NCBI GenBank assembly: GCA_950295325.1
Contig: OX485805.1
Location: forward strand, 5,330,501-5,394,500
DNA length: 64,000 bases
DNA from: Polytrichum commune
Lineage: Eukaryota; Streptophyta; Polytrichopsida; Polytrichales; Polytrichaceae
Direction of reading: 5' to 3'
In this document: positions 25,626 to 47,899 of the stretch, in pieces
How the letters are laid out: each line of letters opens with the position of its first letter
How positions within the stretch are numbered: position 1 is the first letter of the stretch
Position numbers and translations under genes: made by a program
Notes under the pieces: model-generated
What the model was told of the DNA's origin: nothing
What the model saw: only the letters and a program-made list of their open reading frames with translations
Database searches by the model: none

Positions 25626-26768
25626 CAACTGGGTTTTCCAACTCATACAAGTGAGAAAACCAGGACTTTATTGACGTGGAAAACGACCAGTCGCTCCGGA
25701 CAAGCAGTAAAGGAATATCGGACAGGACGTTCCCAATGGATACGTTCCCAATGGCAGTGAAGTTGGACTTGCGACGCGTGCCTTACTTCATAGAGTCATG
25801 TCCTATTTCACTATGTTTTGGCAATATAAGTAAGATACGACACATGTCCATATAACTCAACGAAGTGATACAATATCACGGGCACTAGTCATGTAAGGTT
25901 TTGTTTACTTCACTGAACAAAGTAATACAATGAAAAATATGTATACATACATTCCAAATTACTAGTGAACGATAAGAACGTGGTTGAAACAAATATGTAA
26001 CCACGTGGCTAAGATTAATTGAATTAATTCTCACACATTACTTATTCCAGTAATCGCGGACAACCAAGTGGGTAGTCAATAACGTTGCGTAGTTAGCTTC
26101 TTTGACTTTAGGTAGTAAATACATACAACAACTGCATATTTTCTTACTTCACGTCGTCATGTAAACATCACTATCTGGAGTGATGTTTACCTCAACCAGT
26201 GGTTTATGATCTACGTTGTTAGGTCATGTGGTTCACGAATGTCTTTTTTGTGTATTACTAGCAGTGAATTATACATGATATTGCCAAGTGTATGTGTAAT
26301 TGTACGTAGTAAGTGTCTGTGACTACCAAGAGTGAATACATATTTAGATGGCATATATTTCTTACTTGAAGTCGAAATATCTATATTACTATGTAACGTA
26401 ATGTAGACAACAAATTCTGGTATTTTTTGTACGTTGTGAGGTTATGTGGTTTTCACATGTTTTTAGTGTATATTACTGGTACTGCAGTGAATATCGACTG
26501 CGCTAAGTGGCATAATTAGGCTGCAACTGTGCGCGTTTACTGTTACTAGTAACATGCGGCTGACTCAACATAGTCATAAATTTATGGCATTAACAATATA
26601 TTGATATTTATCATACGAGGATCATCGCAAACATGATCATTTAGTTCAAAAACCAAATCATATTCATCCAATAGTGTCATGAATGTTTCACAAATTGCTT
26701 CTAACAATGGTAAACACTGAATTCCAAATGTCTGCAAATCAACCTAGATCTACAAATCCACTCCACAC
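25626..26768. repeat. 5' subterminal region of the CACTA element
   Basis: AT-rich, with recurring ACTTCACT.TGT-type and GTAAGTGTCTGTGACT-type motifs. The block GTCTGTGACT.CCAAGAGTGAATA.ATAT at 26318-26345 recurs at 29740-29770 and 42086-42118, which ties these parts to one element. Subterminal repeats are normally the binding sites of the CACTA accessory (TNPA) protein; binding is inferred here. Confidence 0.6.
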
Positions 26769-29700
26769 TCACGTAGCCGCACATAAATTTACACATTCGC
26801 TTAACCAAAGAATGTAATGGCCCTTCGCTTTGCCAATAGTAGTCACTGGAGGGTCGTCTCCAGTGAGAGGTTCGAGCAAAGGATAGTCGTCTTCAAGTGA
26901 CTCCGTGATGGCCAATGATACATAACCATTGCCAATCACCTTCCCATGCAACATCCCACCTGCTATATTTTGAACTACACCCTTCCCAATGGTTTTCGCT
27001 TTCGAATCCGGAGAATCATAGCCACGCAGGTAAACCAAGTCCCCCGTAGTCTGCACAATTCCCACGTACATATGTTACTGTTCCAAATTTTGAGCACGAA
27101 TCATACTATTTTGCTGGTGTTGATATTTGCAGATCAAAGAAATATTTAATCCAAAGTACTAAAGTTACATTGTCGTCATATCTACTTTGCTATGTCAGTT
27201 TTTCTTTACTATGTCAAGTAATGTTTACTATGACATGTCCAGTGGTGTTTACTATGTGCAGTAATGTTTACTATTTCATGTTTACTATGTCCAGTAATAT
27301 TTACTATGTCATGTTTACTATGTCCAGTAATGTTTACTGTGTCCAGTAATGCATCATCATTTTAATTAACCCTGCAGAAATATATGAAATGTGCTTCCAA
27401 ATTAAACATATAAATCATAATGAAAGCATCAACCACCTTAAGCCGAATTAAGTAAACAAATTGCATCTTAAATCCATAATGAAGTAATTGAGAAACTTAA
27501 ATTAATGTGCTTACTTGCACTTAGCTACCAGGCTTCATTAGTTTGACCGAATGCTCACCAAATCCTGAATGGGTGATGTCTTCTTTGACGCCTTTGTGCC
27601 AAGGGGAGGTTTGTCACCCCGGCGCTTGTCCGCCATTTCCTTGCCTCCTTCTTTCTCCGTTTTCTTCGAGACCTTTTTTAATGGGCTACCCCTGGATTTT
27701 TTTGCAATGTGCAATCAAAACTACATATATTTAACAGATATTTTTCTATGTGCTCAAAATATATTAGCCATTCTAGGCTCAATAGTCAACATAATTGGGG
27801 GAATTTACGTGACCACTTAAAGAGCACAAGACCTTCACTTTGATATTGAATAACATAGTCATATGAAGTTTGAAAATCTTGAGGTTTACATGGATTGGCT
27901 TTCATCTGACTTATGGTAGTAAATAGAAACAGTTACAATGAGCATTATCTCACTATTATTTTCACTATTCTATGTTTAGGCTACCTTTCGGTAGCAAGGG
28001 ACCGGCCTCTAGAGTAAGTTTCTGTAACTCGCTGAGCCGAGTACGCTTCGGCCTGGGTCCCGAAGCCGGCTTTCCACCGTCAGCCGATGTTGCTTGGACA
28101 ACTGACGGTACGCCGCCACTGGAAACGTCCGGTGCCTACAACCAACAACAAATTAAGAGCGCATTAAAGCCCAACATTGAGCTAAAGAAGATTACACTAT
28201 TACACATGAGGTTCTGAAATTTGGAAATGATAGATTTACGTAATGGAAACATATTTATTAGATGCCAATGCTTTCCAACGGAACCAATTCAAACCTCATA
28301 CTTGTTCAGCCTCGTCATGCAATGAGGAGGCTTTCTGGGAGCCGCAGGGGATCTCTAGGCTCAGTGAGGTGACCTTCTCACCTGCACTGCCAAAGTCCAT
28401 GGTCTTGCTTACCGGCTCCTTCGACTGAGAGCGTGCGGGTGGTGATACACTCTTACGGGAGTCTGCTATGCCTTTGTGATCACTGGAAGGTTGCTCTCCA
28501 CCTGAGGGAGCGCTGGCCATTCTTGAAACTGTGATGCCAAACTTGGCCATCACCAATTCAATCGAGCTCTGCATTGCATTAAATTTGTTTTCTAGGGCAT
28601 TAAACCTAAGGTCTATCTTTGCCCTTCTCTCCTCCATTCCGGCATCCCGAGTGCGACTTACGTGCGGCGATACTCCAAACCCGCCCTCATACTGGGCGTC
28701 GCTGACTCCCCCCCTCGACATATTGGAACTGTTTGGTCGGCCGCCTTTGGACTTGGAGGTGTTCTTGTCGTGGACAAGTTCATCCTCGACCTCGTCCTGC
28801 CGAGGGTCCCTGTTTAGTTCGGATGCCTACAAGATCAATCATGAAATACTCGCATTTAGATAAATTGAACACCTATCTTTGCTCTATCCGCTGATGGTTA
28901 ACTGTACAAAGTAACATCCAGAGCCTAATTGTCACGTCTACTGTGCATAGTTATAGGTGCATAGTAACATACAATTTCGCATAGTTAAAGGTTCATAGTA
29001 ACATACAACTTAACATTAACTTTGAACTGAACACTTGTTTTCAACTATGCTAATATTTGGAGGTCACATTTATGTCTAGCACTTACCATCACGGTAAAGA
29101 ATAGGGTGGTAACAACACTAATTATAATCATCGATACTCAAATATTACAATGAATTTACACTAATAACTCAAGCTTGCTCACCAGCCGGGCTCGGACCTC
29201 CCCTTCGGAGCGTCCAAAGGTAGAGACCTTCTTAACGCACTTCCTCGCCTCCCTCATCACATTCGCTTGATAGATTTTGCGAGGATCGCGTGTCAGCTCA
29301 ACCATGTGTTGCCAGTGGTCCAATCGAATAGACTCATGTCTGCATAAACCTTTTAATATGCGCATCTTCATCTGCGCTCTCTTACTTTTCAGCTGCTGAC
29401 CTAGGTTAGATTTGAAAACTTCATACCTCAACACCCTCGTTTCTCCTCTCGAGCCGCGATACTCCCAGTTCTCCTTCATCCGTGTGAATATGTTGTCGAG
29501 AGCCATTTCGGACTGATCATTTACGTTGTCCACGCTCCAGTCCAGATCGCTGGAGTAGCCTCGCAGCGCGTTCAGCCACTGCGGCCTATACACACCGCTG
29601 GGATTGCCTACAAAAAACTATACGAATCAGCTACAAACCTCCTTCAACAAATAACAATAGTCATATGTTAAGGGCATACACATTATATTGTCACAGGTTG

Positions 29701-30388
29701 TAGTAGGCACTAACTCTACGTAGTAATCATCTGCGACTGCTCAGAGTGAATACATATAGTAATGGGTTATATCTCTTACTTCAATGAGTGATAAACACTT
29801 TACTATGTCAAGTAACGTTGACAACAAGGTCTCGTATTACTACAAGTAGTGAGGTACATATCGACTTCGCTAAGTCTATAGAATGCAAATGAATTCGGTT
29901 ACTGTAACGAGTAACATGCAGATCACTCAACTTAGTCGTATGTTTATAGCATGCATAATATGTTTACACTTATCATACCAAGATCATTGTGTTGAGTCAT
30001 ATTCTTATTGACAACATGTTATGCAGCGATAGTTCTTGAAGTTTGGATGCCTAAGAAAACATCTAATTAACATTGGATAAAATACTAAGTTGGATATGGT
30101 TTACCGTTATCGTCAAGATCGACAACAAATCTTGGCTTTCCCTCCCTTGCTCTCTCATCGAATTCATCCCGGCATGCTTTATTCGCTGCCCTCCTCTTCG
30201 CCTTCATCTGCGAGTTGCGATTAGTAGTCCTTCGCCATTTTCCCTCTCCTCCATCTTCCTCTTCATCGCTGCTATCCTCCCTCACCGAGTGGCGGCATGA
30301 TGTTAATGCCAACTCCCGTTTCATAATCAACAACTCTTTCTTTTCTATCTCTAAAGCCAGCTTGGCTGCACTACTATCCTTGGGAGTT
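26769..30388 (-). CDS. CACTA accessory protein gene (TNPA/Transposase_24-like), multi-exon, 5' end missing
   Basis: Minus-strand gene inside the CACTA element. Exons: 30388-30105 (acidic then basic, SSDEEEDGGEGKWRR), 29607-29183 (MKMRILKGLCRHESIRLDHW, then VMREARKCVKKV, resembling the Transposase_24 region of plant En/Spm proteins), 28826-28302 (coiled-coil-like FNALENKFNAMQSSIELVMA, then Ser/Pro-rich), 28135-27985 (basic, PRPKRTRLSELQKL), about 27690-27555 (lysine-rich, nuclear-localisation-like) and about 27046-26769 (GKVIGNGYVSLAI..., resembling the C-terminal DUF8039-type domain of CACTA proteins). The first four exons join in phase; the fifth junction does not match by one base, so an indel or another splice site is likely. 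The first exon was not found. Probable role: DNA-binding accessory protein for transposition. Confidence 0.6.
27225..27350. repeat. Short tandem repeat, TTTACTATGTCCAGTAATG-type unit
   Basis: About six imperfect copies of a unit near 19-22 bases (TTTACTATGTCCAGTAATG with variants) lie in an intron of the accessory gene. Scattered single copies of TTACTATGT.AAGTAA occur elsewhere in the element. It resembles subterminal-repeat material expanded in tandem. Confidence 0.65.
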
Positions 30389-30469
30389 CTGGTACCTTAT
30401 ATAGTCATATGTTAAGGACATAGAGTACAGCTTAGGGTTGCATCCATTTCAGGCCCACTTACCTTGCTG

Positions 30470-31013
30470 GAAATTAGAACCTGCACTGCAATATCCACCA
30501 GGATTCACGAACTCAAAACGCAGTAAATAGGTGACTCGCTCAGTTTGGAATGCCTCACAATCCGAGTCCTGGCAGGTTCTAGTTACTGAAGAATTAAACC
30601 AGGCTCGCAAACTTTGAGCTTTTCGACTAGCTAGTACTCTTCACCAGCAAACCTGCTTACCCACTTCAGAGGCTCCATTGCACTTGTAGAAACTGCGCCA
30701 GTACTAGAGTAAGAGCTTGATGAAAAGTCACTGTGGATCAACACATGCATAATGGAATTTATAGCTGGAAAAACCTACTTACATTGAAATATTATCCACC
30801 AGAAACTCAAAACTAGGTGACCCACCACCCAGTTTGGGGTGCCTCAGGCTCAAAGTCCACAATCTCCCAGGGGCATATTCTACTGACTGAATTAGTAAAA
30901 CTCACCGGCATAGAACTTTGGAACCCTAGTAGTCCTTCCCCAACAGCAAATCTACCCACTTCAGCATGTAGAGGTTCGAACTTGAAGAAGATGGATATTG
31001 CAGACTTACTAAA
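30470..31013 (-). repeat. Diverged tandem duplication of about 300 bp
   Basis: The halves 30470-30770 and 30775-31013 share ordered blocks: TTTGG.{1,2}TGCCTCA, CTGA.GAATTA, TACCCACTTCAG, and AATATTATCCACCAG/AATATCCACCAGG. The right half is open on the minus strand (ISIFFKFEPLHAEVGRFAVG and on). The left half is broken. Function unknown. A related third piece lies at 35591-35760. Confidence 0.5.
30964..31013 (+). repeat. Exact 50-bp direct repeat, left copy
   Basis: Identical over 50 bases to 35591-35640 (starts GCATGTAGAGGTTCGAAC). The two copies bracket the 4.58-kb block that carries the HAL3 and MVD fragments and the orphan CACTA end. Confidence 0.85.
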
Positions 31014-32405
31014 TAATGGACTAGTGTTATGTAGACACCTACATTTGAGTGGAATATGGTGACACTTGCAACCAAGAATGGACACCACCAAAACATGCGT
31101 TATGGTGAGATTGGACTATGTGCTGAAATGGAAACTATTTTTACTTCAACACATTCAAAGGGCCTATGTGATCACTTAAAAGAGGAAGAAGAATCTTCAC
31201 TTTGACCTCTTATAACTTTTGCATTTCAACTTTGATTTTGACAATTTGAAACAACAATCTTCATGGTTCACAACTGTTCACCTCATTGAATAAGGCAATT
31301 CATGGTCCCATCCAACAGCCAAAAGTGTGTGCAGTCGGAAGTAAACCTCATAAGATAATCATTAGAGTACAACCAGGAACCTACTCAAAGAGAGGCATTG
31401 TGTTATCAAATACTATACGATGGAAGAATCTTCACAACAATGTGCATGTTAGCAGATTGAATGACATATAAAGGCAGATTGGTCATGGGTTAGATGCGAG
31501 ATTGAACTGCCACCTTCTTTAAGACTTGGGACACCTATTGCCTATCATTCAGATGGGAAGGCAGAGAGCAAGAGAGATGACTCCAATGTTGCCACTGGCA
31601 TGAAGTATGGTGTTGCTTCATCTTTGAGTTGGTCTCATTCTATATGTAATCCTGAATCAGGTATGGAGATTTTCAAGGCCCTCAAAGACTATTGCCTGCT
31701 TTAAAAGGTGAACACCTTGAAAGGGTGGAGGCAAGCTGGACTGAACCTACCTATCTCCCCTAAACCCCCTAGGTTCCCACGTTGTTTGGTTGTAAGCTAA
31801 ATTGGATGCCAAAGTGATATCATTAAGTCTTCCCATAAGGCTATATTGGGCTACTTTCATACCACTTGAAAAAATCTGAGTTTACATATGTGATAAAAAT
31901 GAATAAATCTTATTTTTGCAAACAGCCTCATGAGAACCTTTATTATTAGCCTACCAAGTCTTTGTTTGATGAAATAGTCGTTTAAACCAAAACCTTACGA
32001 GGGTGAGAGGTGATGAATATGCACCATACTCTTGCATTCATTGCAGCAAATATGCAGACCATATGTCTATACATCACACTTTGCAGCTTACAATTCATAT
32101 AGCAAAATCAAAATATAAGTATTTAAAGACCCACGTCTGACATGAAAGTCAACAATTTGTAGTATTAACTTGCGAATAGCTGCAGCAAAACAATGAGCTT
32201 TTCAATCTAAAGCAACAAACACCTGAATTGCTGGACCTGACCCTGGACACTACATACCTTAGCGTAATGTCAGCCATCAGCCTATGACAATTCAATTCTT
32301 GACTAAGATCTCCACTGAGAGCTTAGACTTATATTTTCGTTCAAACAGTCAATTAAAACTGCAGAATGACAAAACTTGGAAAACTCAAACAAACGAGATG
32401 TGCAC
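31014..32405. other. Captured or unclassified sequence; one possible plus-strand exon
   Basis: Contains R2-related blocks at 31100-31220. A plus-strand open stretch at about 31500-31635 (PIAYHSDGKAESKRDDSNVA, then YGVASSLSWSHS) ends at a GTATGG donor-like site and reads like an exon. I do not recognise it. It may be another captured gene fragment. Confidence 0.3.
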
Positions 32406-33074
32406 CTTTGCAAGTGTAATAGCAGACGGGTCCAATGAGCATGGGATCAGCCCACTTGCGAAGCTCTAAGGTATGTGGTTGTTCTTCAGTTTTTTGTACA
32501 TGTTCTCCAACTTCTACCAATTAAATTAACACAACACAACCTGTGGTACATTAGCAAATCTACAATGAAGCAGCAGCAGAAATCAGATTGAGAATGGGAC
32601 CAACTCTATTTAGTTATGGTTATCAGAAGTGCAAGTTTGTTGATTCCTTAACTGATCACATAGGTCCTCCCAGATGTATTCAATATTGAGTGTGGAGTAG
32701 TTAATTAAAACGTAGTCCAACCTCTGATATATACATGTCTTTATAATGTTTGTTCTTTGATCCTCAGATAACCACACACCAATCTAATATAGGTGGTTGG
32801 TTAAGAAAAATAACCAAATAACACTCGCACACCTTATGTGAAGAATGTTGTCTCCTATTTTGCTCCAGCTTGAGGACTCATCTTCATCTGTATATAGTTT
32901 CACACTGGCAGGCAACCCACTTGTGTCCATAAAACGCAATGCAGGTTGTGAGGCCACTGCTCTTAATTCCGCCAAATCTGATAGACTATCAGCCAGAATT
33001 TCAAACTTCTTGCACCTACTCTGCCACTTGCTGCTAAAACAATCCAAGGCTGCCAAACTCCCCATTTCTCCCAC
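32406..33074 (-). pseudogene. Captured fragment of a HAL3-like phosphopantothenoylcysteine decarboxylase gene
   Basis: Minus-strand exon remnant, about 33074-32840. It begins MGEMGSLAALDCF (compare GSVAAIKF of HAL3), continues LAELRAVASQPALRFMD and ASVKLYTDEDESSSWSKIGD, and ends at LHI. A second remnant at 32465-32406 reads ELRKWADPMLI, then PSAITLAK in a shifted frame, matching the HAL3 stretch HIELRRWADVLVIAPLSANTLGK. The intron between them is kept. Lesions: an apparent extra A at the first exon's end (AAG|GTGTGC) and a 2-base loss before PSAI. The downstream part of the enzyme, including the flavin/substrate region, is absent. In hosts the enzyme makes 4'-phosphopantetheine for coenzyme A; here it is a non-functional passenger. 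Confidence 0.8.
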
Positions 33075-33196
33075 TCTAGTAGGGTTCAGGTGATCTCTTG
33101 TCCCTAAACCCTAATGACAAGATCTCAATGAAGCGGCATTGATTTTCACATCCAACATCACTTGAATTTATATCCATTGAAGATCCAACAATGAAC
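32466..33196. other. Retained intron and 5' flank of the HAL3 fragment, with an R2-like insertion
   Basis: The intron between the two HAL3 exon remnants (about 32466-32838) contains R2-like sequence at 32700-32835 (TTCTTTGATCCTCAGATAACC). That R2 copies also sit in OTU-gene introns suggests both were host introns before capture. Confidence 0.45.
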
Positions 33197-33637
33197 CTAA
33201 GAGGAAAAAAAGATTGATGGAGACCATCCGCATGTCCTTATGATATGCATATTCAATTCAATGCAGATAAATGGCATGCAAAAAATTTCAAAGAGAAAGT
33301 GAGCAGCCACATGAAAGAGATTGCTAACTAGATCATCCACAGGATCCGTGAACTTACATGATGCATTGACCAAAAAATGACAATCATTGTTCCCACTGCA
33401 TAGCTCCTTCAAAAATAAAACTCAGCACTGAGAATAGAATGCACATTTTACGCCTGTGAGCATGATTGATTGAGACTATGGCAATCAGTTGGTGACTAAT
33501 GAATGAGTTAGAATACCATAGAGTGCTTCCGCATTCGGCTTTTTAATTGATGATTGTTCTTAAACTTTTGCCACGTGGCAGTCTTACATTGTTTGAGACC
33601 ATTCAAATTCCACATGGAAATTATAGTTGGCCATCAA

Positions 33638-33682
33638 GTAGTGAAGTAGGTGTTGGAATAAAAGACGTGTTTTGTAGTAGTG
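33638..33682 (+). repeat. Orphan CACTA 3' terminus inside the element
   Basis: These 45 bases match 45731-45775 with one mismatch, including the complete 24-bp terminal repeat (33659-33682). The orientation is that of a 3' end. The flanking bases are CCT, not TTA, so it is not the partner of the 5' end at 25602. No second 5' terminus was found upstream. It looks like the tail of another family member carried in with the captured DNA. Confidence 0.85.
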
Positions 33683-33974
33683 CCTCTACACAAACTTATT
33701 ATTTCCGAAGAATGGGAGCATTTGGATGTGCATGAACTTAAGTTGGCAGCTAAAAGGCGAAAGAGTAGGATGCCCTACGTCAAAAGAAGACTTATCATTC
33801 AAAAGACACTGACAACTGCAGATGTTTTGTCTAACCTACAAGAATGAGACTACTAATCCTAATTCCTGATGCTACTGGATTTCAATTTGGACAAGAATAA
33901 AATAAAACGTAAAAAACAGCTCAAACCCAAATTTGGGTGAAGAAATGGATTGTGCGTAAAGAAAAGATGGTCAC
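33683..33974. other. No gene recognised
   Basis: A short stretch between the orphan terminus and the MVD fragment. A plus-strand string around 33745-33835 looks loosely copia-like (it resembles a T.DMLT tail) but is too short to call. Confidence 0.3.
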
Positions 33975-34137
33975 CTAAGCATGGAAAGGCAGCAGCCGAG
34001 GAAGCCAAGCGAGCAGCAGTTGTAAAGTTGTTTTCTGATGCGATATGGATGTGAATGTTGCTCCAGTCTTCTTTGCAGATGCTCTTGCTGGTGTAATCGA
34101 TTACCACTACATTGGCCCCAACACGAATCCAAAGCTC
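33975..34137 (-). pseudogene. Captured exon of diphosphomevalonate decarboxylase (MVD)
   Basis: One minus-strand exon between an AG acceptor (about 34137) and a GTGACC donor (33974). It reads [20 protein letters not shown], then [20 protein letters not shown] and AAAFPCL. This matches the plant MVD core '[33 protein letters not shown]'. The conserved [8 protein letters not shown] ATP-loop is altered to RLASSAAA, and the Pro of NNFPTAAG is Thr, so it has decayed or drifted. No other MVD exon was recognised within 2 kb. The host enzyme makes isopentenyl diphosphate in the mevalonate pathway; this copy is a passenger. Confidence 0.8.
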
Positions 34138-35590
34138 TAGTCAAATCTATCTACAAATACACATTCTCTTACAAGAGGACACTAACATATCACATAGACA
34201 TCAAGTAATCAGAGGTCATCAGAATAAATCCATCGACTCCTCAAAATGAAGTGGCCTTCAAGAATACAGCACATTGCATCATTCTGTGGCATCCACTAGG
34301 CTCCTGCAAGCACCCACCCTCACATGTTTCCCACTTTCTGTGAAATTTGACAATTTCCCCAGGACCCCACACCTGCAACCCTAAAGTTGTCTAGCGAAGA
34401 CAAGTTGTCCAGATTTTGCAAAAATTGGAGAACATGTTCAGAGCTAACAGACTGCTGTTGCACTCAAATTGCAACACGTTGTTCACATCAGTAGGCTCGC
34501 CAAGACGCCACCTTTCAATCACTGCAGACGTGGACAAAAGGGTGATGAGTCGATCAAAGGCACTCTCTTCACAGGACTGAAAACCCTGGATCTCCTGGTT
34601 GCGCTAATTTCGTAGTGTAAACAAATTTAGTATAACCTGCACTCATTTCCCACACTGAATGGAATAATCAGTGTAGTACCCGCAAGAGAAGGGCCGATCA
34701 ATGTTATGAACCAAAATTAGCAACTGTTCAAATTCTACGTAACCATGATCACAGATACAAAATATTAAGCAAACTATTTGTGATGAGAGGAGCACATGTG
34801 TATTTAAGAACGGATTCAATGTAAAGAAATCCTCACTGGGCTGCAAATCTTAAGACACATCGAAACAATGATGTCACAAGCGTCAATCTGATGAAATCCT
34901 GGAAATGGGTCAGTTGTGTTTGTCTACGCAAGTGAGTGTGCAGTAATCCAAAGAAGTCGAACAACATTGGATGTCATTACAAACTGAATTCGCTGTGGTA
35001 ATTTGTTGTTACACCAGTAAATGTGACATTGGAACAAAAATATCTACGCCGTAAGGGAATTTTGGCAGCCATCAGAAAGGCCTACAACTTCATGACATAA
35101 GCCCTTCGGCTCCAGGAACCTGTAGTGTTGCCTCCACAACGATAGTAGAACAGCTGAATGAATGAGCTTTGAAGACACCAAGAAAATAAATTGATCTGTA
35201 GGGAAGGCCAATCTAGATCTGTTCACAGTCAAGGACTCTGCATCGACATCCCAGTATTCAAATCAAGATGGTAAGCACAATTGGCCCAGCTACAAATTAG
35301 TCCAAAGGGCATCACCGCATTTCTATGACGATCTCTGGCTACGAAAAGCTTGACTAAGGTTTTAGACACTGCAAATAAGTAGAGCGTTTGTCAAATCTTT
35401 TGTCATGACTTAAAAGCCGAAGAAATTTGGAGAGACAACGTCCAGAAGAGGATGACTGTATAAGTAGACATTTTTAAGTGAACGACCTGACCGATCAATA
35501 GCTTTCTTTCAGGACACAAAAGGTGACCCACCAGGATGTACCTTTGACTCTGTCACTCATTGAAGGGAAACAATAGACAGACAATGGTCG
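34138..35590. other. Unclassified captured sequence
   Basis: No further MVD exon or other gene recognised. A minus-strand open frame at 35044-35232 has no motif. It may represent introns or flank of the captured MVD gene. Confidence 0.35.
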
Positions 35591-35640
35591 GCATGTAGAG
35601 GTTCGAACTTGAAGAAGATGGATATTGCAGACTTACTAAA
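35591..35640 (+). repeat. Exact 50-bp direct repeat, right copy
   Basis: Identical to 30964-31013. The sequence continuing to about 35760 still resembles the 30720-30820 tandem unit (GATCAA..ACA..GCAT, GAAAAAACTTACA.T). Confidence 0.85.
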
Positions 35641-35911
35641 GAAAGAGCATGAAGAAAGCCACTCCGGATCAATTACACACTGCATCGACATGGAGTTCTG
35701 GCTAGAAAAAACTTACACTGCAACATACATAATCCCCCAAGAACTTGACTCGAAAAAGGTGCAGTACAACTCGATCAAGGGAGCCAACTCCGGCCAACTC
35801 ACCAAATCTCGCTACTCCGGCGAAGACTGTGGCTGAAAAAACCCTAAGCTTTCCCTGCCCGTTGCCAACAACCAGAATTCATCCATTCCCACCTTCGCTA
35901 AATGCTGTTGA

Positions 35912-35970
35912 AACCTCAAAGCTGCACACAACCTCAAAGCTACACACAACCTCAAAGCTGCACACAACCT
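35912..35970 (+). repeat. 18-bp tandem repeat, 3.5 units
   Basis: The unit AACCTCAAAGCTGCACAC is repeated three times (one G-to-A change in the middle unit), then a partial copy. It lies in a GC- and CpG-richer patch (35740-36130) unlike its surroundings, which could be a captured promoter or 5' UTR. The encoded TSKLHT repeat is not taken as a gene. Confidence 0.75.
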
Positions 35971-36130
35971 CTGCGGTTGGGTCTCCGCTGCGTCCACGAG
36001 AGCTTCCGCTAGGGTCACCGCGTCTAGCAAGCTTCCCCTAGGGTCGGAGCCAGTCTTGCGGTCATCGTGCCCAGTCTTCACACGGTGGCATTCGCCGTTC
36101 ACACGAGAGCCCAAGGTGCTTTACGGCTGC

Positions 36131-37219
36131 AGGGCAAATTTTGCCCGTGGTAAATACTCAGGTAACATTTGACTTTTCTGACCCTTATATTTCCCCCCTC
36201 TCTCAAGGGTTTGTTGGCTCTGTTTTTAGACAGAGACTATGCATCAACTTCTCAGTTTCAAAGAGTAAATTTCCTAACCACTTTGCGTTCACACTTGAAT
36301 GTTTCATGCTATTTTTGGTCCAATTCATTGAATATGGATGTTAACTATAGTTATATACTTAGTTTTTGCTGTAGTGGCTACCTAGAATGTATTGAAAAAA
36401 ATATAGTTAACTATACTAATTGTGTTGTGTACAGTAATGAAGGCTACCATTTGGAGTGACGTGTTGCTATAACCTTTTACAGGAAACTTTTTTTAGCAAC
36501 TAAGTTATAGCATATCATTAAGTGCGCCGGCTAACTACTTATTTCATTTGTAATAGATAGGACACTCTCGGTAAAAGCTATATCAACACGGAATTCCAAG
36601 TATTAGCCCAAGTGTAGTTGACAATACAATGTACACTAAATATAATAAGATTTAATGTGTTGGTTCCAGCTTCACATGTTCTATAATTGCCCCTTCAACT
36701 GTGAAGTAATGTCACTCTTTGAAGTAATGTGATTTACTTCATGGAGTAATGTCATGTATCAAACACATACTCCTTCACTTTGGTGTATCAATCACTGTGA
36801 AGTTCTACTATGTGAAGTTCTACTATTTGCGGGCACATCTACTTAATATCTAAAATTCTTCATGAATGCAGTTGAGAATCACATTCAAACTTATACACTC
36901 ATGTCTGATTTGCTCTTCGACATATATTTCTAGGTTTTGCAATGACTTCCTAGTTTATATCTACAAATGTGTCGCCCAATGGTAAGTATCTAATTAACTG
37001 ATGAACTACTCACATTATACGATTTTGGTTATTAAATTACATATAACTACATACAGTTGTTGTTCACTGTGTCAACTACATACAATTATTACTCAACTAC
37101 ATACAGTTATTACTTAACTACAGTTGTTGTTCACTGTGTCAAGTAATGCTAATTACTACATCAAGTAACGCTGTCCGTTTTAAGTAACAAGATTTTATTT
37201 GCTGAAATACAGATTCAAA
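36131..37219. other. Leader region of the transposase/SET gene
   Basis: AT-rich CACTA internal sequence with scattered ACTACATACAGTT.TT repeats (37040-37125) and TGAAGTAATGT motifs (36700-36750). It probably contains the promoter and 5' leader of the gene starting at 37220. No TATA box singled out. Confidence 0.4.
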
Positions 37220-38102
37220 ATGGACGGATCTGCAAGGCGTGCAATGTTGGACCTGGAGCTATGGAACTTGGAGGAAAAAGAAGCAGACAGACAAAGGTTG
37301 GTTAAGTATCGATGCCCCTGTAGTATGTGTGCAGGGGGAAAGGTACTGTCTAGAGCAACCATACGAAAACATCTCCGTCAATACAAACGAGATCCCGCAT
37401 TCACGAAATCCATATTGGTAAGTGTTATATTTGTGTTCATTCAATTCTATTGTTTTGTAATTGAGGCACTTTAATTTTGATGTAATAACGATTCCATTCG
37501 TGTAGGCACAAAGAAGACCTTTTGTTGAGGAAGCAGCTAAGACGGCTATGGAAGAGTTTTTTAAAGAGATGACAACCCCCACACTTGTCCCTCAAAAGAA
37601 AACTTACATTAACGAGGAGCTGAAATTGATGAATTGGAGGGTTGATAAATTCGATGGGCAGTGGTGTGGTGGACCCATACCAAAGTTTAGTACTTTCAAC
37701 TTTCATGATAGAAAGTGGGAAGTTCAAATTTCTAAGTTTTCGTTCATGGGCTGGGGTTTATTTGCAATGGATCCCGCAAAAGTAGGCGATATCCTTTTGC
37801 CATTTGTGGGGCCTCAATACACTAGGACAAAATACCGGAAGATGAAAAGTCTTGTACCCCGCTTCAAAAGCTATGTCCTTAAAGTTGAGGATGACATTTA
37901 CATCGACGGGAGAGTGGAGAGGGGCAATGTTGTAGGATTTATTAATAGCTCCATAGGGCGAGAGGAAATCGGCAATGTAGTGTGGGAGTATAGTTTGCTT
38001 CCAAAGCCTTGGAACAAGAACGAATGGGGTTTTGTTATGACCATTGCATCAAGGGATATAGAAGTAGGAGAAGAGCTGTATGCATATTACTCCGTGAATT
38101 AA
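37220..38102 (+). CDS. Zinc-motif/SET-domain protein encoded inside the CACTA element (alternative product of the transposase gene)
   Basis: Exon 1 (37220-37417) encodes 66 residues with the CACTA-associated zinc motif CPCSMCAGGKVLSRATIRKH. Its GTAAGT donor is followed by an acceptor (GTGTAG) at 37505. Exon 2 (37506-38102) continues in phase and encodes a SET domain, ending in TAA. Total 264 residues. SET marks: GWGLFA near residue 143 (SAM-binding G-x-G), a YIDGRVERGNVVGFINSS block at about 199-216 (matching GN..RFINHSC), and RDIEVGEELYAYY at the end (matching GEEL..DY). The usual NHS is NSS and no post-SET cysteines follow, so methyltransferase activity is uncertain. There is no stop or frameshift in 198 codons, unlike the broken transposase beside it. 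Likely role, if active: chromatin-level protein methylation. Exact donor gene unknown. Confidence 0.75.
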
Positions 38103-38693
38103 AATTGTGTTATTTTCTCTAAGATATGTCGCGTACGCACTTCATTGCATATTTGAATATCAACTTGCATTACTTGACCTAGTGAACCCCAACTGAATGC
38201 AGTTAAAAACAAGTTAACCATCTGCATTCCTTATAACTATAAAATGTTACTTTGAAGTTTCATGCAATGCAATCTTATTGTAGACACATATACCTGATGA
38301 AAGTAATAAGGCATGTTGTGTTGGATAGCTTTACTTGATGCAGTAATTTGCAATACTCGACATAGTGAACTAGTACTGGATGAAGTTGAAAGTGCCAGAA
38401 GAGAAAGTAATGGTTCCTCCTGGATTTGTCGTAAACATACAAGGTTACTGGATCACAAAATGTAATGATTTCTTATTCCTGATGCAAACACATGTTCAAC
38501 ACCAGGAGGCTTCTTGTGCTGGATAGTAAGATGTCGCCTTTTGCATTACTTGTCGTAGTGAGTATCAACTTAATGCAGGTGAAAGGACTAGAAGAGAACA
38601 TGTGCCAAAAATTTAACCCACTAGATTCAACATGTTGAGACATTGGATTAATAAGAGTAAATGTATTGTTTCTTGTTGTTGATGCACATACAG
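38103..38693 (+). other. Intron between the SET exon and the TNP2 exon
   Basis: AT-rich, with repeated CTTGATGCAGTAAT and GACATAGTGAAC..A motifs. It ends at a CACATACAG acceptor (38693). Skipping from the donor at 37418 to this acceptor keeps phase with exon 1. Confidence 0.6.
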
Positions 38694-40242
38694 GATGTCA
38701 ACAACGACATCTACATTGCTAATCGTGACATATGGAATGCGACACAAGAAGGGAGGTACATGATGGTAGAGGCAAACAATGATACGGGACAAGATGTAGA
38801 TGGAGACATATTACTAGAATCAAATACGGAAACAGTGGAAGATAGCAGGGAGGGAGTGAACGAGTGTTTCAAGAGGTATGATGGATTGCCCGCACGCGCA
38901 AACACCACATCACACAATGAGGGTATGGAGGAAGAAGACGAAGGTTCACAAGAAGATGAGGAAGGGATGGCCAACATGGAAATACCTTTACTTGAAGAGA
39001 GCAATGAAGAAAATGACTCAAGTATGGAGGATTTATTGAAAGAAGCGAGAACTCCGCTCTTCAAGGATAGCCCCACCAACCGCTTGCAAGCAATCCTAAT
39101 GCTCCTTAATGTATGCAACATTTTTGGAGTTCCAAACGCATGTGTGGACGAGTTGCTAAAGTTGCTTAAACATGATCTACTCCCCAAAGAGAACACTTGC
39201 CCTCCTTCACATTACGAGGCCAAGAAATTAGTGAGGAAGTTGGGTTTAAGCTACAACACTATTCATGCGTGCAAGAATGGGCATTGCTTGTTTAGGAATG
39301 AACTGAAGGACGCGAAAGAGTGTCCTCAGTGCAAAGAATCGCGGTATATTCCCGGTAGTGACCGCATTCCAATGAAAGTGTTGCAACATTTTCCTCTTAT
39401 ACCTCGGTTGCTCTGAATGTACCGTTGCAAACGGTTGGCAGAGCTTATGACGTGGCATGTGGAGGGAAAAAACAATGACAACAAAGTGAGATCGGTAGTG
39501 GATTCAAAGGCATGGAAACACGTGGACGCAAGGTGGCCGGACTTTGCGAAGGAGCCAAGAAACCTACGTTTGGCACTAGCCTTGGATGGTGTCAATCCAT
39601 TTTCCAACCAGTCTTTAAGTCATTCAACATGGCCAGTGATTTTGTTAAATTATAATTTACCACCATGGCTAGTTACGAAACGGTTTTTTGTGATGTTAAC
39701 CCTAATCATTCCCGGAAAAGAAAGTGTGAAAGAGGAGAATATCCATGTGTATTTAGCACCGCTTATAGAGGAGCTTCAAAGGTTGTGGAAAGGCGTGATG
39801 GCAATAGATGGATCCGTTTTGGAGAAGGCGAGTTCAAGTGAGGGGAGTATTTATTCCACAAACCCAAATTTCAACTTCGTGCGATTCTTATGTGGAGCAT
39901 ACATGATTTTCCGGCGTATGGGTTGCTTGCCGGACAAATAACGAAGGGGTATAGGGGTTGTCCCCCATGTGGGCCACATGTGTCAACGAGGAGGTCCAAG
40001 TCGTTGGGGAAGAACGTTTACCTCGGTCATCGTCGTTACTTGGCAATGCACCATCCGTATAGATGCCTAAAAAATAGCTTTGATGGAGAAGAGGACCACC
40101 GAGGTCCCCCGCGGGTAATGTTTGCACATGATCAATTGCGGTTTGCAAAAGAAAGAGAAGACTGGTTGGCAAGCTCGACTGAAAACAAAGAAGGAGACAA
40201 ACTGGATCCAATCCACGAGCATGGAGTGAAGAGAAAGAATGC

Positions 40243-41025
40243 ACTCTTTACATTACCGTATTGGAAGGTACACACTAGCGATTATTGTAATACTCTGTGA
40301 AGTAATGCATGTCTATTAAACGTAAACACATTTTACTGTGTGAGGTAATGCATAATGACTAGAGAAAGTAAGTGTTCACTTATAAATGCATTTTTCTTAA
40401 TACTCTAATACTTATAGAAGTAATGGTATAGTCATATCGGACAACCATCGTTTCAACACTTTGCAACAGTTTAATATATGGGAGTAACTTAGGTCTTGCA
40501 ACAGTTCAATATATGCAGCAATTTAGGTCTTGCACTCTTTGCATTACCATATTGGCAGATACACACTAGCGACAATTGTTTTACTTTGTGAAGTAATGCA
40601 TGCTTATTAGAAGTAAACACACTTTATTGTGTGACGTAACGCATAATGACTGGAGAAAGTTTGTGTTCACTTATAAATGCATATTCCCTAATACTCCAAT
40701 ACTTATAGAAGTAATGGTATAGTCATATCGGACAATCATTGTTTCAACGCTTTGCAACAGTTTAATATATGGCAGTAACTTAGGTCTTGCAACAGTTTAA
40801 TACATGCAGTAACTTAGGTTTTGCACTCTTTGCATTACCATATTGGAAGGTACACACTAGCGACTATTGTTTTACTGTGTGAGGTAATGTATAATGACTG
40901 GAGAAAGTACGTGTTCACTTATAAATGCATTTTCCCTAATACTCCAATACTTATAGAAGTAATGGTATAGTCATATCGGACAACCATTGTTTGAACACTT
41001 TGCAACAGTTTAATATATGACATTT
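40243..41025 (+). repeat. 291-bp tandem repeat (about 2.7 units) in a transposase intron, duplicating an exon end and splice donor
   Basis: The block CTCTTT.CATTACC.TATTGG recurs at 40261, 40552 and 40843 (positions of its TTGG), a period of exactly 291. The first unit begins in the exon encoding FTLPYWK and includes the donor AAG|GTACAC. The third unit again has AAGGTACAC; the second has CAGATACAC. The units are very similar, so the duplication is fairly recent relative to the element's decay. Confidence 0.9.
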
Positions 41026-41967
41026 GACAAACAGTGTACTTAACCAAATTTTGTGTGCACCAACAGGGCGTTCTTATACGCAATACGTTGGATGTAATGC
41101 ACTGCGAGAAGAACATCACAGAAAGTCTTATGAAAACCATATTTGGGGAGAAGGATACACTCAAGGTTCGCATGGATTTACAAGAAGCCAACATACGGCC
41201 GCATTTGTGGCCCATACCGGGGAGAAAACCAGGAAGCCTCACTTTGCCACAAGCCCCATATGTGCTCACAAAGAACGAGAAGGAGGTATTTGTGGATGTT
41301 GTGCGGCAATTGAAAATTCCAACCCACTACGTGGGCCAATTGCGGAAAAGAGTTAACGTGGATGGGACATTGAAAGGATTGAAATCCCACGATTACCATG
41401 TCCTTATGCAACAAATTTTGCCCCTTTATGCATGCACAATCATGAGAAAAGAGGTGCGTATATGCATAATAAGATTAAGCCGCATATTCAAATGGATATG
41501 CGCTAAAACCATCAATCCGTTGGAAATGAATTCCTTGAGAGAGGATACGGCCATCACCTTGTGTATGCTTGAAAAAGAGAGTTTCCACCGGCATTTTTTG
41601 ATGTCATGACGCACCTTGTGGTGCACTTGATTGAGGAATTGGATATTTGTGGGCCTATACATGTCCGTTGGATATATCCTATGGAGAGGTATTTGAAGAC
41701 ATTGAAGGGCTATGTTCGAAATCGCAATAGGCCCGAAGCTAGTATGGCCGAAGGATATGCCATAAATAAGGCGCTTGGCTTTTGTACGGAGTACATGACG
41801 TCATATTCCATTACAAGTCGCAGGGTATGGGACGACAAAGAGGATCCTACAATGAACGATGAAATATTGGAAGGTGTTGGGCGACCAAGGATACTAACCC
41901 CCAAGATACGTGAGTGGATCCATGAGTTTGTGGTGAATAATGTGGTCCCCTTGGAGTCGTGGAGAGA

Positions 41968-44467
41968 GTAAGTACTTTTATGACTTATGTTCCTGGTCGT
42001 AACATTATATTCCAGGCACAATGATATGTTAATGGCATGCACATTATAATTTTACTAGTCTTACTAGGTAATAACTATACGTAGTAAGCGTCTGTGACTG
42101 TCAAGAGTGAATAAATATGGAAATTGATGCACCCCGTGGGTCGTTCCCTTGCAATTTAGCTCAAGAAGACTCACGGTGAGACATCACGTAAATTTATATT
42201 CGCTTGAAAACTACCGTGCCTCATTAATATGTTCGGTCTCTAATTAATAATCCCTCTTTTCTCCTTATAATATGAATATAATTATTGGAGTGAACACAAT
42301 CTCATTATTTTAATTCTTATTCTCAATGTAAGGCATCATTGATAATAAGAACCATTAGATTTAAAGAAAGCTTCAAGAAGTGTAACAATATCCTTGATAA
42401 TAATCTAGTGTTCAATAAATTGTATGAATCTTTAATGTTAGTAGTTCATAAACATTAATCACACAAATGATAGTAATCTTATAATGATGAAGAAGATCTA
42501 ATATTCTTGAGTCTTCTTTTTTAAATTCAAGTGTTACTACTTATAATATTGTAACTTGACATGTATGCATATAGTAGTTATAATTTCGTGAACACATCAT
42601 TGTTTGTTTTGCAATATCACGTTTAACATTCAAAGTGTTTTAATGACAAGAATAATTATAACTCTCTTGAGGTTTATTCAAGAGAAAGAACTCCTCTTTG
42701 ATTGTTAATAACATCCAACAACTCACAAAGTATCTTAAGAGAAGAAGCATTTTTACTACAAAGTGTTTCTTGATGACGAGAAGATAAACCTATCTCTCTT
42801 GAATTTTGCTCAAGAGAGAGAGAGATCTTCTCTTGAATAGATAATTCTTCAAAGTGTAATGACATCCAACAACTCACAAAGAATCTCAAAGTAAGAAGCT
42901 TCAATAACAATTGTAGTAAGTAGATTATCTTATATCAATATTACTTCATTCATATGTATTCAAACTTTGATATGAATTAATGTCGTCATCATTCTTGTTA
43001 ATCATAAGTTCAACAATCAATATGTAGTATAATATGTATAATACTTATAAGTCAATTATGTAGTTTTCAATAATAAGCTCCTCCTCTTTTGAAGGAGTTG
43101 CAATCGTTAAGTTGTTTTGCTTAAATCATAACATGCATATAATTCTTCAATCATTCAATCACATGTATATTTATAATTCTCTTTTGAGGAGATCAATGAT
43201 AAGTTCCGCTTTAAGAGATAATCTTGTTTCCTTCACTCAAGTTGACAATCGCTTTCTCAATTCAATCTCTCTCAAAGTCCCATTGATTCTCCAATTTGTC
43301 TTGAGCGCTTTGTTTTCACCCTCACACTATCTTTTGAGTTCTTTCTCAAAAGAGTCTACTCAATCTACTCTACTCTCGGTTGCTCAATCACTTAAGCTAC
43401 AAAGTACCATTGACGACTCGTAGTTCAAATTGAGAGAGGTAGAAAGATCACACGCATTTGTAGAAAAGATAAGTGTATTGCAAAAGTTCCTCGAGAGGAG
43501 AGTTACAAAAGCTTCAAGTGATTATTGACACTCAAATTTAAGATAACTTCGTTGTGTAGAAAATGAGGTATAGGTCTCCTAAAATGCTTCCCTTATATAG
43601 TCTTTTCTTCCTAACCAAAATCTATACTAAGAGTGGTTGTTAACTTCCACTTTCCTAGATAACTAACTATCTCCAATATATGTAGATGATATCTAACCTA
43701 AACGGTTATAACCGTTTCGTCACCTTGATGTTCATAATTCCAAGATTTCCCTAACTCCTTGTTGTGGCTACATTCTAGACTCTTTTTGGAGATCACTCAA
43801 TTCTTCATGTTGATTGATTAATGATCATGCTAATAGAATGTACCATATTCTCCTTAATGTCTTCATAATGTCTCCTTGAGTTCAATATCTAAAATTCCCA
43901 TATATTCCATAATCGTGCTTCCTCAAAATCTTTCATTCTACCTATTCCATAATCATGCTCAAAAATACTACATTCCTATATACTCCGTCATTATGTCTCT
44001 TCACATAGTCATTGATCTTCAAAATCTTCCATTCCTAAATACTTCCATATTGCCTCTTTAATCTCAAAATCCTATCTCCTATATATCCTAATATACTTCA
44101 TAATGCCTAATACTCATTCCTTAATACTATTGTAGTAGCCTTCTTCTTTAAATCCCAAGTTCTCCTCCATAAACCCGTTGGGCACCCATTGCCGTGGGGT
44201 AAGGGAACCTATAGCCGCGCGTAAGGTATGTAATTCCGCGGAAAAGGGCCCTAAAGCCATGGCCCAGCGCCTAAGGCCGTGGTTGAAGGCTTTCGAGCTC
44301 TTCTCCGAGCTCGTCCTCATTTCGGTGCCGCTCCTTGACTCTGTTCCGATTGTAGTACCATTTGTGTCTTGAATATGTTGTACTCAACATAAATGACATA
44401 TATTTATTACTTGACATAGTGATATCTACGTTACTATGTAAAGTAATATTAACAAAACATGAGTGAG
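41968..44467 (+). other. Last transposase intron, interrupted by an insertion
   Basis: Donor GTAAGTAC at 41968. Likely acceptor TGAG at 44464-44467, which keeps phase (W-R-E-F-E-R-Q). The intron's own sequence is element-type repeat (GTCTGTGACTGTCAAGAGTGAATA at 42090) before and after the insertion at 42120-44371. Confidence 0.6.
42120..44371 (-). mobile_element. Unclassified 2.25-kb insertion within the CACTA intron
   Basis: It is flanked by a possible 6-bp target duplication AATATG (42114-42119 and 44372-44377), with CACTA subterminal-type sequence on both sides. The left part is AT-rich with CTCTCTTGA..AAGAGAGA and TCACAAAG.ATCT repeats. The right 200 bp (44160-44345) is strongly GC-rich. 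On the minus strand this right end starts with ATGGTACTACAATCGG, reminiscent of a primer-binding-site-like start, but no LTR was found. No transposon protein recognised. Class unknown. Confidence 0.5.
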
Positions 44468-45392
44468 ATTTGAAAGACAGCACAATATTGTGTTTTTCTG
44501 CAAGCGCCACACCGCAAGCATGACACAGCGTAAATTGGATCGTGAGGAATATCGAAGGAATAAACGAAATGGCAGGATTGTCTATCCCGAAAATCTCCAA
44601 GATGAGCCCTTTCACAATTGGTTCAAGTTAGAGGTTTCACGTGCCAAAGCGGCGGGAGAGGAGATTGATGAAGATGTATTGGTCTTGTCTCTTCCACCCT
44701 CTAGCCAAACAACATCTTACCGCTCCATGTATGCTTTTGGAAACCATATCCGTGTGCGAAGTGCAGAGAGGACATTGACAACATGCGACTCTGGCGTGGC
44801 CGCCACCTTCTCACAGAATTGTCGATCAAGTGCACGTGCCAAGAACATGAAGGCGGCGAACTTGGAGTATGTGAGATGGGTGGAGGAAATATTGGCCGTA
44901 GACTATGGTCGATATGAATTGGTTGTATTGTATTGTAATTGGGTGATGGCAAATATGATTGGGTACAATGTCACCATGAAGCGAGATGAGTATGGGTTTA
45001 GCCTAGTGAATTTTGATAGGTTGGTACCATTATCTGCCGAATCTTTCGCATTTCCACTTCATGTTGAACAAGTTTTCTTTGCAGATGATTTGAACAATCA
45101 TGGGTGGAAGGTGGTTCTACGGAAAGAGTCAAGGGGAACAAGAGTTGTTTCCAACAAAGACTATATGCTGGACATAGGTTGCCTATCTCTAGGCAGCGTT
45201 GAAGAGCATTGTGGTTTGGTGCCCGCATCTTTAGAGAATGATGCAACACCAACTGACCCAATATTGGATGAGGTTGTGGTTTTAAGCAGCAACGAAGTGG
45301 TCGTAGCTTTGAACGCAATTGAGCACGCATCTCCTTTTGAAGATGAGGATGACTTTGGAATTGAAGAAGATGGAAATGTTCAAATAGATTAA

Positions 45393-45751
45393 ATTAGATT
45401 ATGTTAGTTGTGTAGAAATGCCTCACTGTATATAAATGTGTACATTCCATTATGAATTGTAAAACGAGACGCCCCTTTTTGGTGAGTACTCAGTCTAAAC
45501 CCTTGAAACACATGACAATCTGACCTGAAAATCTTTCCAAATCGACCACTTCACTACCCACAGTAATGCACGTTCCATTGGGTGTTCCCAAACACGTTCA
45601 CACGTGCGTTCTCAATTGAATTGTTGTCCTACTTCACTACCATGACTCCTCAAAGTAAATTCGGACATTGAATGAACAACATTGAATTTCGTGCATTCCC
45701 CCAATCACTCTTCATAGTAGTAAAAGACATGTAGTGAAGTGGGTGTTGGAA
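45393..45751. repeat. 3' subterminal region of the CACTA element
   Basis: Follows the transposase stop codon. It contains ACTTCACTAC.CA, CACGTTC and GTAGTGAAGTGGG motifs like those at the 5' end, in inverted sense toward the terminus. Confidence 0.6.
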
Positions 45752-45775
45752 TAAAAGACGTGTTTTGTAGTAGTG
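45752..45775 (-). repeat. 3' terminal inverted repeat of the CACTA element
   Basis: The 24 bases are the perfect reverse complement of 25602-25625, followed by the target duplication TTA (45776-45778). Confidence 0.95.
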
Positions 45776-47899
45776 TTAGCTCAAACTTCCTTTCGAAGCT
45801 TGGATTTAGTATTGAGATGTTGAAATTGGTGACTTCTAAATGAAACGATGGGTTAGTAAGCTTCAGAGTCTAAAGTTCTAACTATTGTCACAGAGATAAC
45901 AAGGGATTTTGGTTAAGTGCTATAGACATGTGCATAATTAAAAAAAAAACTTTTTGGAGCTTGGCTATGGTCAGACACATCTCTTTTTAGCTGAGTCCCT
46001 CTATGATATTTTGAAGACAGTTATTGTCTGAGGGAGAGGAAACCCACTATATATATATATATATATATATATAATAAAAATAACAACGTAATTTTGAGCC
46101 TCTCGTGAAGATAGAAAATTTTCTTTGTGCTAAAGGCTATGATCTGATGGCGCAAAGCCCAATTCTTTCTCTCAAAATTTGTGTTGTGAAGTTTCAAGTT
46201 TATTAATTACCCTTATCAAATTGTCTCACTCTTGAGAAACGAGTCAATTCTCAAGTTTGTTGCCAAGTTTGTTCAATATCATTGACTAAATAATTTGTTG
46301 GGTGTGAAGCCCAACTACTTTGTAAAGCACTTATGATACTAGTTGGTTGGGTGAGGTAATTCTCTTAAAAGCCTTGGGAGAGTCAATTGTTGGAGTTCTC
46401 GTGAAAGGAATGTAATGTTTATGCATGGAGTTCGTCTAGATTGGGAACGTCCATTTGAGAAAATGCTCTATTATAGCGATTCACAAAAGGTCAGGTCTCC
46501 TAGGAATTGGCTGGAGGTTAACAACAATATCCTGGAAGTTTTTAGGCATAGTCAGTTAAGACCCTAGTGATTCCAAATCCAACCGATTACATGTTGATAT
46601 CTTCTGGTTTTGCTTTATCCATTTGAGGTAGATTCTATAGATTCCTCTAAAATGATCGGTAAATTTCTTGAAGTCTTGAACTTCAATCGGATATTTGTTT
46701 AACTCAATTGTTTCATCTACAAGTAACCGCCCATTTTTTTCTGCACATAGGTTGGTAATTATCCATTTTGAACAAGAAATATATTGGTGTGAGTAGGTAA
46801 TTAATCATAGTCGTCGAGAGAATTGTAGCCTTAGCTTCACCAATGGATTATGAAGCCTCTGAAGGCAATAAAATATAACAAAGGAGGGGGAGATTATAGT
46901 TTGTATCTAAATTATGCGTTCCTAAATGAGCGAAGCCCTGGGTATAGGGTTGCAATGAAATATTGATTTTCGTGAGCACATGAACCTTAAGGGCAAGCAT
47001 ATAAACCATTGCCTTATGAGATGAAGGTGATCATTGCATGTACAATGAACTAAGATTGGAAGAGATAAATAATTTGCATAGAGTAGGCCATTAACTTGGT
47101 ACAAAAACCACGAGAAATTCCACAGGATGTGAGATCCTATGAGTTGATTTTGAAGTTGGATCAAGGTGTAGAATTTGTTCCAAGAGAAGAAAAACCTATA
47201 AGCTACAGTGATCTAGGCCCCATAAACTTGGAGAAGGAGAACCTTTCCTTAGCTTACATATGCCCTAAATGTGTCCAAAACAATGAATTAAAGCCGCAAA
47301 TATATTCTATATGAAAAGATATAGACCATGGTCAAAACCAATAAGTTGTTGGATGACATAAAAAACCCGGGGTTGGGACTATTTATCAAGGAAGGAGGCC
47401 AATGTACATAAGGAGTTCATCTTCGGGGACTAAGGGGTTCAGTCCCGGACGTTGCTTTAAAGGAGACTTGAAAGACTACTCCTTGAGTACACTTGACTAT
47501 AGACCTTCGAAGACCATACGCTTCACCTAGGCCATTGACCTCTTTAGAGTTGAGGTGACAATTGGGCTACTATTGCTATTCCTGAATGAAGTTGTTGTGT
47601 TCCCAAGCGACTGAGAGCCACGTAACTTGATCTATTTTTTTACATTTTGTTCCAAAAAATTCTACCATGATTGATTAACTTTGCAATTGTGTCACAATCT
47701 ATAATGGAACAAAAGGATTTATTCTAATCAACGGGATTCTAATCAACAAACTAATATTAATTTAAATAAACCTAATGAACACTTGAGGGGTAGTTGAATC
47801 AAACTAAAAGGACTTGTTAGTGCCCCCTAGTATAATCATATAGACTAATATGTTTTGGCCTATGGTTTTGGAGACTCACAGGGTGTTGTCCTTCAGTCG
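45776..47899 (+). repeat. Probable continuation of the copy A LTR-like repeat, split by the CACTA element
   Basis: Removing the CACTA element joins 25546-25601 (LTR-like start after the AAGGGGC tract) to this stretch. Its opening (AAACTTCCT, then TTATTGTCTG.GGGA) resembles the start of the copy B repeat at 57654 (TTAAACTTCCT, CATTGTCTGGT). A (TA)n microsatellite lies at 46048-46074. Similarity fades after about 46.1 kb, and I could not place a right end. No gene supported; an open frame at 47096-47314 is unrecognised. Confidence 0.35.

Follow-up and report, generated by a model that had tools for sequence, protein, structure and literature searches.

Can one transposon gene encode both the enzyme that moves the element and an enzyme that modifies chromatin? 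The question is raised by a CACTA (En/Spm-type) transposon in Polytrichum commune, found within a 64,000-nt window (C3:5330501-5394500) of a genome of 408 Mb in 64 contigs; positions below are those of the window. Its transposase gene begins with a short exon bearing a zinc motif, and between this exon and the TNP2 transposase exon lies another that encodes a SET domain. The whole is probably best explained by a clade of CACTA elements that keeps the SET exon in the first transposase intron as an alternative last coding exon. From sequence comparison, the shared-exon gene structure is very likely, and the SET exon is supported as a genuine domain, common to the CACTA clade, constrained between subfamilies and joinable in phase to exon 1.

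The original prediction placed the donor of exon 1 at 37418, the SET exon at 37506-38102 and the TNP2 exon from 38694, with exon 1 ending at a codon boundary, and all of this is exact to the base. Exon 1 starts with an ATG at 37220 and its last codon, TTG, ends at 37417, followed by the donor GTAAGT. The SET acceptor, TGTAG, stands just before 37506 and the frame closes with a TAA at 38100-38102; the TNP2 acceptor, CATACAG, stands just before 38694, and exon 1, SET and TNP2 are all in phase 0. The assignment to CACTA was borne out by Pfam matches to Transposase_21 (TNP2; E 1.7e-41 and 1.6e-25), DUF4218 and DUF4216, by inverted ends that start with CACTA, and by a 3-bp duplication, TTA, on both sides of the window copy as well as of one complete relative (L009, C1:62686605-62703702, 17,098 bp). 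No Harbinger family was among the Pfam hits at E <=1, the transposase being TNP2.

Is this design peculiar to one copy? We compared 40 loci, namely the window and 39 others fetched by SET score and subfamily; these have mostly open frames, a count that is biased by the choice and is not used as evidence. By SET identity the subfamilies are A (~97%), B (~87%), C (~80%), D (~57%) and E (~45%). Exon 1 was found in 38 of the 40 loci, and every one of the 38 has a phase-0 GT donor after codon 66 (GTGAGT in 17, GTAAGT in 14 and other forms in 7). The acceptor TGTAG lies in phase right before SET codon 1 in 34 loci, 33 by script and L039 by eye; it is mutated to TGTAT in L033 and is missing or changed in sequence in L029-L032 and L040. 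In 33 loci the TAG of the acceptor itself closes the frame upstream, so that the SET frame spans acceptor to stop. The TNP2 acceptor is in phase 0 in 19 of 19 rows from subfamilies A to C and, judged by eye, in three D loci (CTGCAG followed by GAC) and in L033, and is changed in L037. Sequence of TNP2 type follows downstream in 38 of the 40 loci; for L034 and L040 the listed TNP2 place is 2.6-2.7 kb downstream. The genome search for further copies returned at least 150 SET matches and the order exon 1-SET-TNP2 in the copies examined, and splice sites and frame persist over five subfamilies to ~45% SET identity.

Ownership of exon 1 was settled from elements without a listed SET. Its similarity to Transpos_assoc (E 3.4e-4, 21.2 bits) falls under the curated cut-off of 27.7. 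Three SET-less elements were examined (L043, L044 and L045), and no SET piece was found in their stretches. L043 and L045 have an exon 1 that is 62-64% identical, a donor GTATTT, an intron and TNP2 in phase 0 (the L045 intron is ~150 bp, with an acceptor chosen by eye), and in the more distant outgroup L044 the zinc motif and TNP2 are read in a single open frame, at least 319 codons long. Read from these arrangements, exon 1 is the N-terminal part of the transposase itself, which an intron separates from the rest in this clade, and the SET exon sits in that first intron. The SET-less pair L043/L045 groups with SET-bearing E members (88/90, TNPn tree), and 4% of the bootstrap trees have a branch that sets the SET-bearing rows apart from the others, with a long outgroup branch; loss of SET or two gains are therefore likelier than a single gain without loss. 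L043 (C6) and L045 (C1) also offer a natural control by which to judge what the SET exon does. As a separate observation, exon 1 of L020 (1211-1408, subfamily D) matches the U-box family at 23.1 bits (cut-off 21.4), better than Transpos_assoc, perhaps through coincidence of a short motif.

It had been proposed that one gene could give either a transposase or a zinc-motif/SET protein. The phase-0 sites, the conserved exon and the identity of exon 1 as transposase N-terminus uphold the gene design; the window copy itself falls short on the transposase side. Its TNP2 carries an in-frame stop (39414-39416), which has no counterpart in 11 relatives compared, and a frame change near 39830-39860, so it could make the SET protein and not an intact transposase.

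The SET call held when checked against Pfam PF00856, which the exon matches with an E value of 9.5e-9 and 36.1 bits (cut-off 22.4) over profile positions 1-104 of 105. Foldseek's own matches likewise returned the SET fold, and a chance frame was ruled out by profile, fold and relatives. In the PDB the single sequence matches EZH2, among others, and the best matches of the SET profile, all weak, are Set1, ASH1L and SETD2, which are H3K4 and H3K36 enzymes. Among 12 fetched host pieces the profile prefers L049, weakly, a piece that looks E(z)-like by eye. In a tree the transposon SET rows form one clade apart from 7 host SET domains (support 100/100), with long branches. As host class of origin, Set1 is favoured by the PDB profile and the E(z)-looking L049, weakly, by the host pieces, the tree splitting by long branches. 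The stretch 37584-37778 (SET-exon residues 27-91, before and into the SET domain) also shows a probably chance similarity to Pfam Ntox17 (E 8.3e-4, 20 bits against a cut-off of 25).

Constraint was measured between the window copy (WIN) and L015, which represent subfamilies A and C and differ at synonymous sites by a dS of 0.66-1.28. The ratio of nonsynonymous to synonymous divergence (dN/dS) is 0.16 for SET, 0.08 for exon 1, 0.25 for TNPn, 0.14 for TNP2a and 0.10 for TNPc. At the DNA level these two copies are 82% identical in SET, against 52% in the spacer that follows and 74% in intron 1a. Trees of SET and TNP2a (21 rows) both recover the groups A/B, C and D.

How widely the arrangement has spread can be read from genome searches, for each of which the best 150 scored places were listed: SET from 207 candidates, TNP2 from 583 and exon 1 from 439, the window's own and broken SET matches being included. 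In 85 of the 150 listed TNP2 places a listed SET precedes TNP2 by 1.17-2.9 kb on the same strand, and in none of the 150 does one lie on the wrong strand. Sorted by TNP2 identity, the share with an upstream SET is 17/18 at >=80%, 27/35 at 72-79%, 32/61 at 66-71%, 9/14 at 60-65% and 0/22 at <60%. For exon 1 the comparison used 127 of the 150 TNP2 places (left out were the 22 at <60% identity and C4:49731272, at 70%); SET lies within 1.5 kb of 96 of the 150 listed exon-1 places, and 27 have neither SET nor TNP2. Starting from the 150 listed SET places, TNP2 is listed downstream for 90 and exon 1 upstream for 107, and many of those without a listed partner score low. Of 119 listed matches of the SET profile in the host genome, which are counted exon by exon and not by gene, 90 are transposon-SET places; for the 35 SET places at the foot of the list this overlap was judged by eye, and none meets the 29 other matches. 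In the protein database the single sequence has 35 relatives at E <=1e-3, and the profile has 124 at 1e-5, of which 120 are listed; they lie mostly on short contigs. No relatives were confirmed in viral or prokaryote contigs, in searches that may omit records near the window's own genome.

What might such a gene do? One transcript would give two products, exon 1-SET (a zinc-motif/SET protein of 264 residues) or exon 1-TNP2 (the transposase). The shared N-terminus would bring the zinc-motif/SET protein to copies of the element, where the SET form may methylate a histone or another protein. Such methylation would most likely keep the element expressible against host silencing, a role like that of VANC or TnpA, with self-limitation as the alternative direction; we suggest the anti-silencing role only tentatively. 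The complete scheme, a sequence-targeted lysine methyltransferase produced by alternative splicing, in which the transposase's DNA-recognition exon would guide SET to the element copies to fix the chromatin state there, and one gene would either move or license its element, is possible and at present doubtful. The opposite effect, in which the zinc-motif/SET protein would place a silencing mark on element copies and limit their number, appears unlikely. The direction of a mark is unreadable from sequence, EZH2 appears among the single-sequence PDB matches, and maize TNPA has both positive and negative regulatory roles, according to PMC2613891; yet an element would gain little from a self-silencer carried for so long, and the best profile matches in the PDB, though weak, are Set1, ASH1L and SETD2.

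Several observations weigh against the reading of SET as an alternative last exon of a targeted enzyme. DNA binding by exon 1 is assumed. Of the 150 listed exon-1 places, 27 have TNP2 and no listed SET (28, with 26 having neither, when C4:49731272 is counted by eye). The SET and TNP2a trees disagree on the position of WIN among B copies. Exon 1 joined to SET, used as a query, found 16 database proteins, none of which covers exon 1, and the entries look like single-exon gene calls, so that this carries little weight. This last result would suit the view that the SET exon forms a small gene of its own within the intron, which has its own promoter and an internal start and is never joined to exon 1: no spliced protein is among the 16, and the database calls P0001-P0003 start at the internal Met (MEEFF), although a caller blind to introns would do the same. 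Against such a gene, no start codon is common to the subfamilies, the Met of A and B being Ile in five C copies. Moreover, the residues between the acceptor and this Met are conserved, which together with the Ile speaks against an internal start, and the acceptor is kept in 34 of the 40 loci, with its own TAG closing the frame upstream. The nested gene was rejected on the absence of a shared Met and the conservation up to the acceptor, and we consider it very unlikely.

Between close pairs the dN/dS of SET is higher, with few changes in each: 1.0 for L036-L037, 0.76 for WIN-L002, 0.64 for WIN-L009, 0.55 for L020-L024, 0.33 for both L003-L008 and WIN-L012, and 0.26 for L034-L032. Constraint this weak would be expected of a passenger, that is, a fragment of a host SET gene captured by transduplication in the manner of Pack-CACTA and spread without function. 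CACTA elements do capture host DNA, as PMC13317346 describes, and the core of the window element (30382-36926, ~6.5 kb) is mostly unlike that of the closely related complete element L009 (~6.7 kb; ~110 bp alike). Against passive carriage stand the single SET clade apart from the 7 host domains tested, long branches notwithstanding, the one place and one phase held through divergence to ~45% identity, and the dN/dS of 0.16 between A and C. Recent passive capture was rejected on this depth of divergence and on dN/dS, and hitch-hiking is in our view highly improbable.

The same balance must include the chemistry of the domain. In 14 aligned transposon SET rows Y195, G82-W83-G84 and N147 are invariant; Y195 corresponds to the last catalytic Tyr, and the GxG and Asn to the cofactor site. 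The His of the NH motif, kept in 7 of 7 aligned host SET domains, is replaced in the transposon SET by Ser in 13 of 14 aligned members and by Asn in L034, and the Cys segment that follows SET domains (post-SET) is lacking; activity is uncertain because of these two features. The D of the ELxxDY motif also varies among the aligned members, and a conserved PxPWN stretch stands ahead of the last strands that is absent from host SET domains. The transposon SET shares fold and core motifs with Set1/MLL, ASH1L, SETD2, EZH2 and SETD8 and differs from them by NS (or NN) for NH, by the missing post-SET part and by PxPWN. One could suppose that SET no longer acts as a methyltransferase and persists as a module for binding, which either reads histone or S-adenosylmethionine or competes with the transposase by way of their common N-terminus, as the altered NH motif, the absent post-SET segment and the variable D of ELxxDY would permit. 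This we think improbable, if worth keeping in mind, since all rows keep GWG, N147 and the last Tyr, the frame is under constraint from one subfamily to another, and PR-domain enzymes work without an NH motif. A catalytically active SET protein is slightly favoured.

How new is the arrangement? DNA transposons with SET genes are known: in Phytophthora, the elements HarbingerS and MuDR (Kojima and Jurka 2014, cited in PMC12730594) likewise form lineages that encode a SET histone methyltransferase beside the transposase. They differ in transposase superfamily and in their oomycete hosts, and no exon shared with the transposase is stated in the available part of PMC12730594. The same source describes, in rust fungi, EnSpm elements carrying TET/JBP, which like ours are EnSpm/CACTA elements with a chromatin- or DNA-modifying enzyme; there it is a dioxygenase and not SET, the hosts are fungal, and no shared exon is described in that part of the source. 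Splice switches have CACTA precedents in En/Spm tnpA/tnpD and soybean Tgmt* (PMC2613891), where, as proposed here, alternative splicing of one gene yields a transposase or else a smaller regulator that binds DNA (presumed for Tgmt*). Their products are of TNPA type, with SET unmentioned in the portion available, and in En/Spm it is intron 1 of tnpA that contains the transposase frame, whereas here intron 1 of the transposase contains the SET exon. The VANC anti-silencing factors of Arabidopsis VANDAL elements (PMC10398659) resemble the proposed product by role, as element-encoded proteins acting on the chromatin of their own copies; they belong to another superfamily (MuDR, per PMC12730594) and are not described as SET enzymes in the accessible text of PMC10398659. 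No plant CACTA element with SET is reported in the titles or abstract starts returned by searches of the open-access literature, Repbase and subscription journals lying outside those searches. By word search, the main text of a 2026 review of plant gene capture (PMC13317346) contains neither SET nor methyltransferase as whole words, and a word search of a study of CACTA exon structure (PMC4158355) found no SET domain. As to the novelty suggested in the original prediction, other transposons were already known to carry SET genes and CACTA elements to switch their splicing; on the literature covered, a plant CACTA with SET may be new.

The remaining anatomy of the window copy is collected in Table 1.

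Table 1. Features of the CACTA element in the window, with strand and defining evidence
Feature	Position	Strand	Remarks
Whole CACTA element	25602..45775		20,174 bp; bounded by inverted ends and TTA target duplication, like the complete relative at C1:62686605-62703702
Left terminal inverted repeat CACTACTACAAAACACGTCTTTTA	25602..25625	+	24 bp
Right terminal inverted repeat	45752..45775	-	24 bp; exact reverse complement of the left repeat
Target site duplication TTA, left	25599..25601		
Target site duplication TTA, right	45776..45778		
Exon 1	37220..37417	+	66 codons; has the zinc motif CPCxxC...H and belongs to a Transpos_assoc-like domain; kept in relatives
Intron 1a (exon 1 to SET)	37418..37505	+	88 bp; conserved donor and acceptor
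SET exon	37506..38102	+	198 codons and TAA; SET domain 37749-38090
TNP2 transposase exon	38694..40138	+	To end of Transposase_21 match (39477-40138); broken by stop and frame change
DUF4218 region, transposase gene	41582..41806	+	Pfam E 4e-28
DUF4216 region, transposase gene	44901..45116	+	Pfam E 1.2e-7
Second element gene	28296..29617	-	Open frames 28296-28826 and 29156-29617; DNA 70% and 89% identical to that of the complete relative

The complete relative L009 has like ends (one letter changed), and its transposase frames of 566, 313 and 312 codons are all open. Common to both elements are the minus-strand gene and the SET/transposase gene. A Pfam search of the minus-strand gene gave no convincing family, and it may have a tnpA-like role. 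The dissimilar cores (30382-36926 in the window against L041/L009) look as if this slot had been swapped for captured host DNA. A further ~2.3 kb (42125-44390), AT-rich and repetitive in appearance, is present in the window copy and absent from that of L009. The element also contains, at 33635-33682, a further right-end repeat in the same orientation; over 48 bp it shares 96% identity with the right end of the element (45728-45775), and it is perhaps what is left of a nested or rearranged CACTA copy. Three tandem copies of a 291-bp unit (40240-41069; 100, 89 and 63%) start where an open frame of the transposase ends and extend across the likely intron behind it. The motif AAGTAATG, picked post hoc, occurs 14 times in the window against 4.28 expected, 13 times inside the element and scattered over introns and spacers; it is a possible candidate for a recognition motif. 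Flanking the element are two similar open frames (24778-25389 and 56802-57614; 203 and 270 codons; 70% DNA identity over 182 bp), for which a Pfam search found no confident family.

If the reading holds, an element-encoded modifier with an exon in common with the transposase would make a single choice of splice site decide on both targeting and chromatin control, in a setting where chromatin state is a contest between transposon and host, and this clade would have kept its SET device through several subfamilies. SET-domain gene counts in annotations may be inflated by transposons, as the 90 profile matches found here indicate. Since SET-bearing and SET-less relatives share one genome, what the exon does to silencing and to copy number could be compared directly from methylation and expression data, and such a comparison would need no new constructs.
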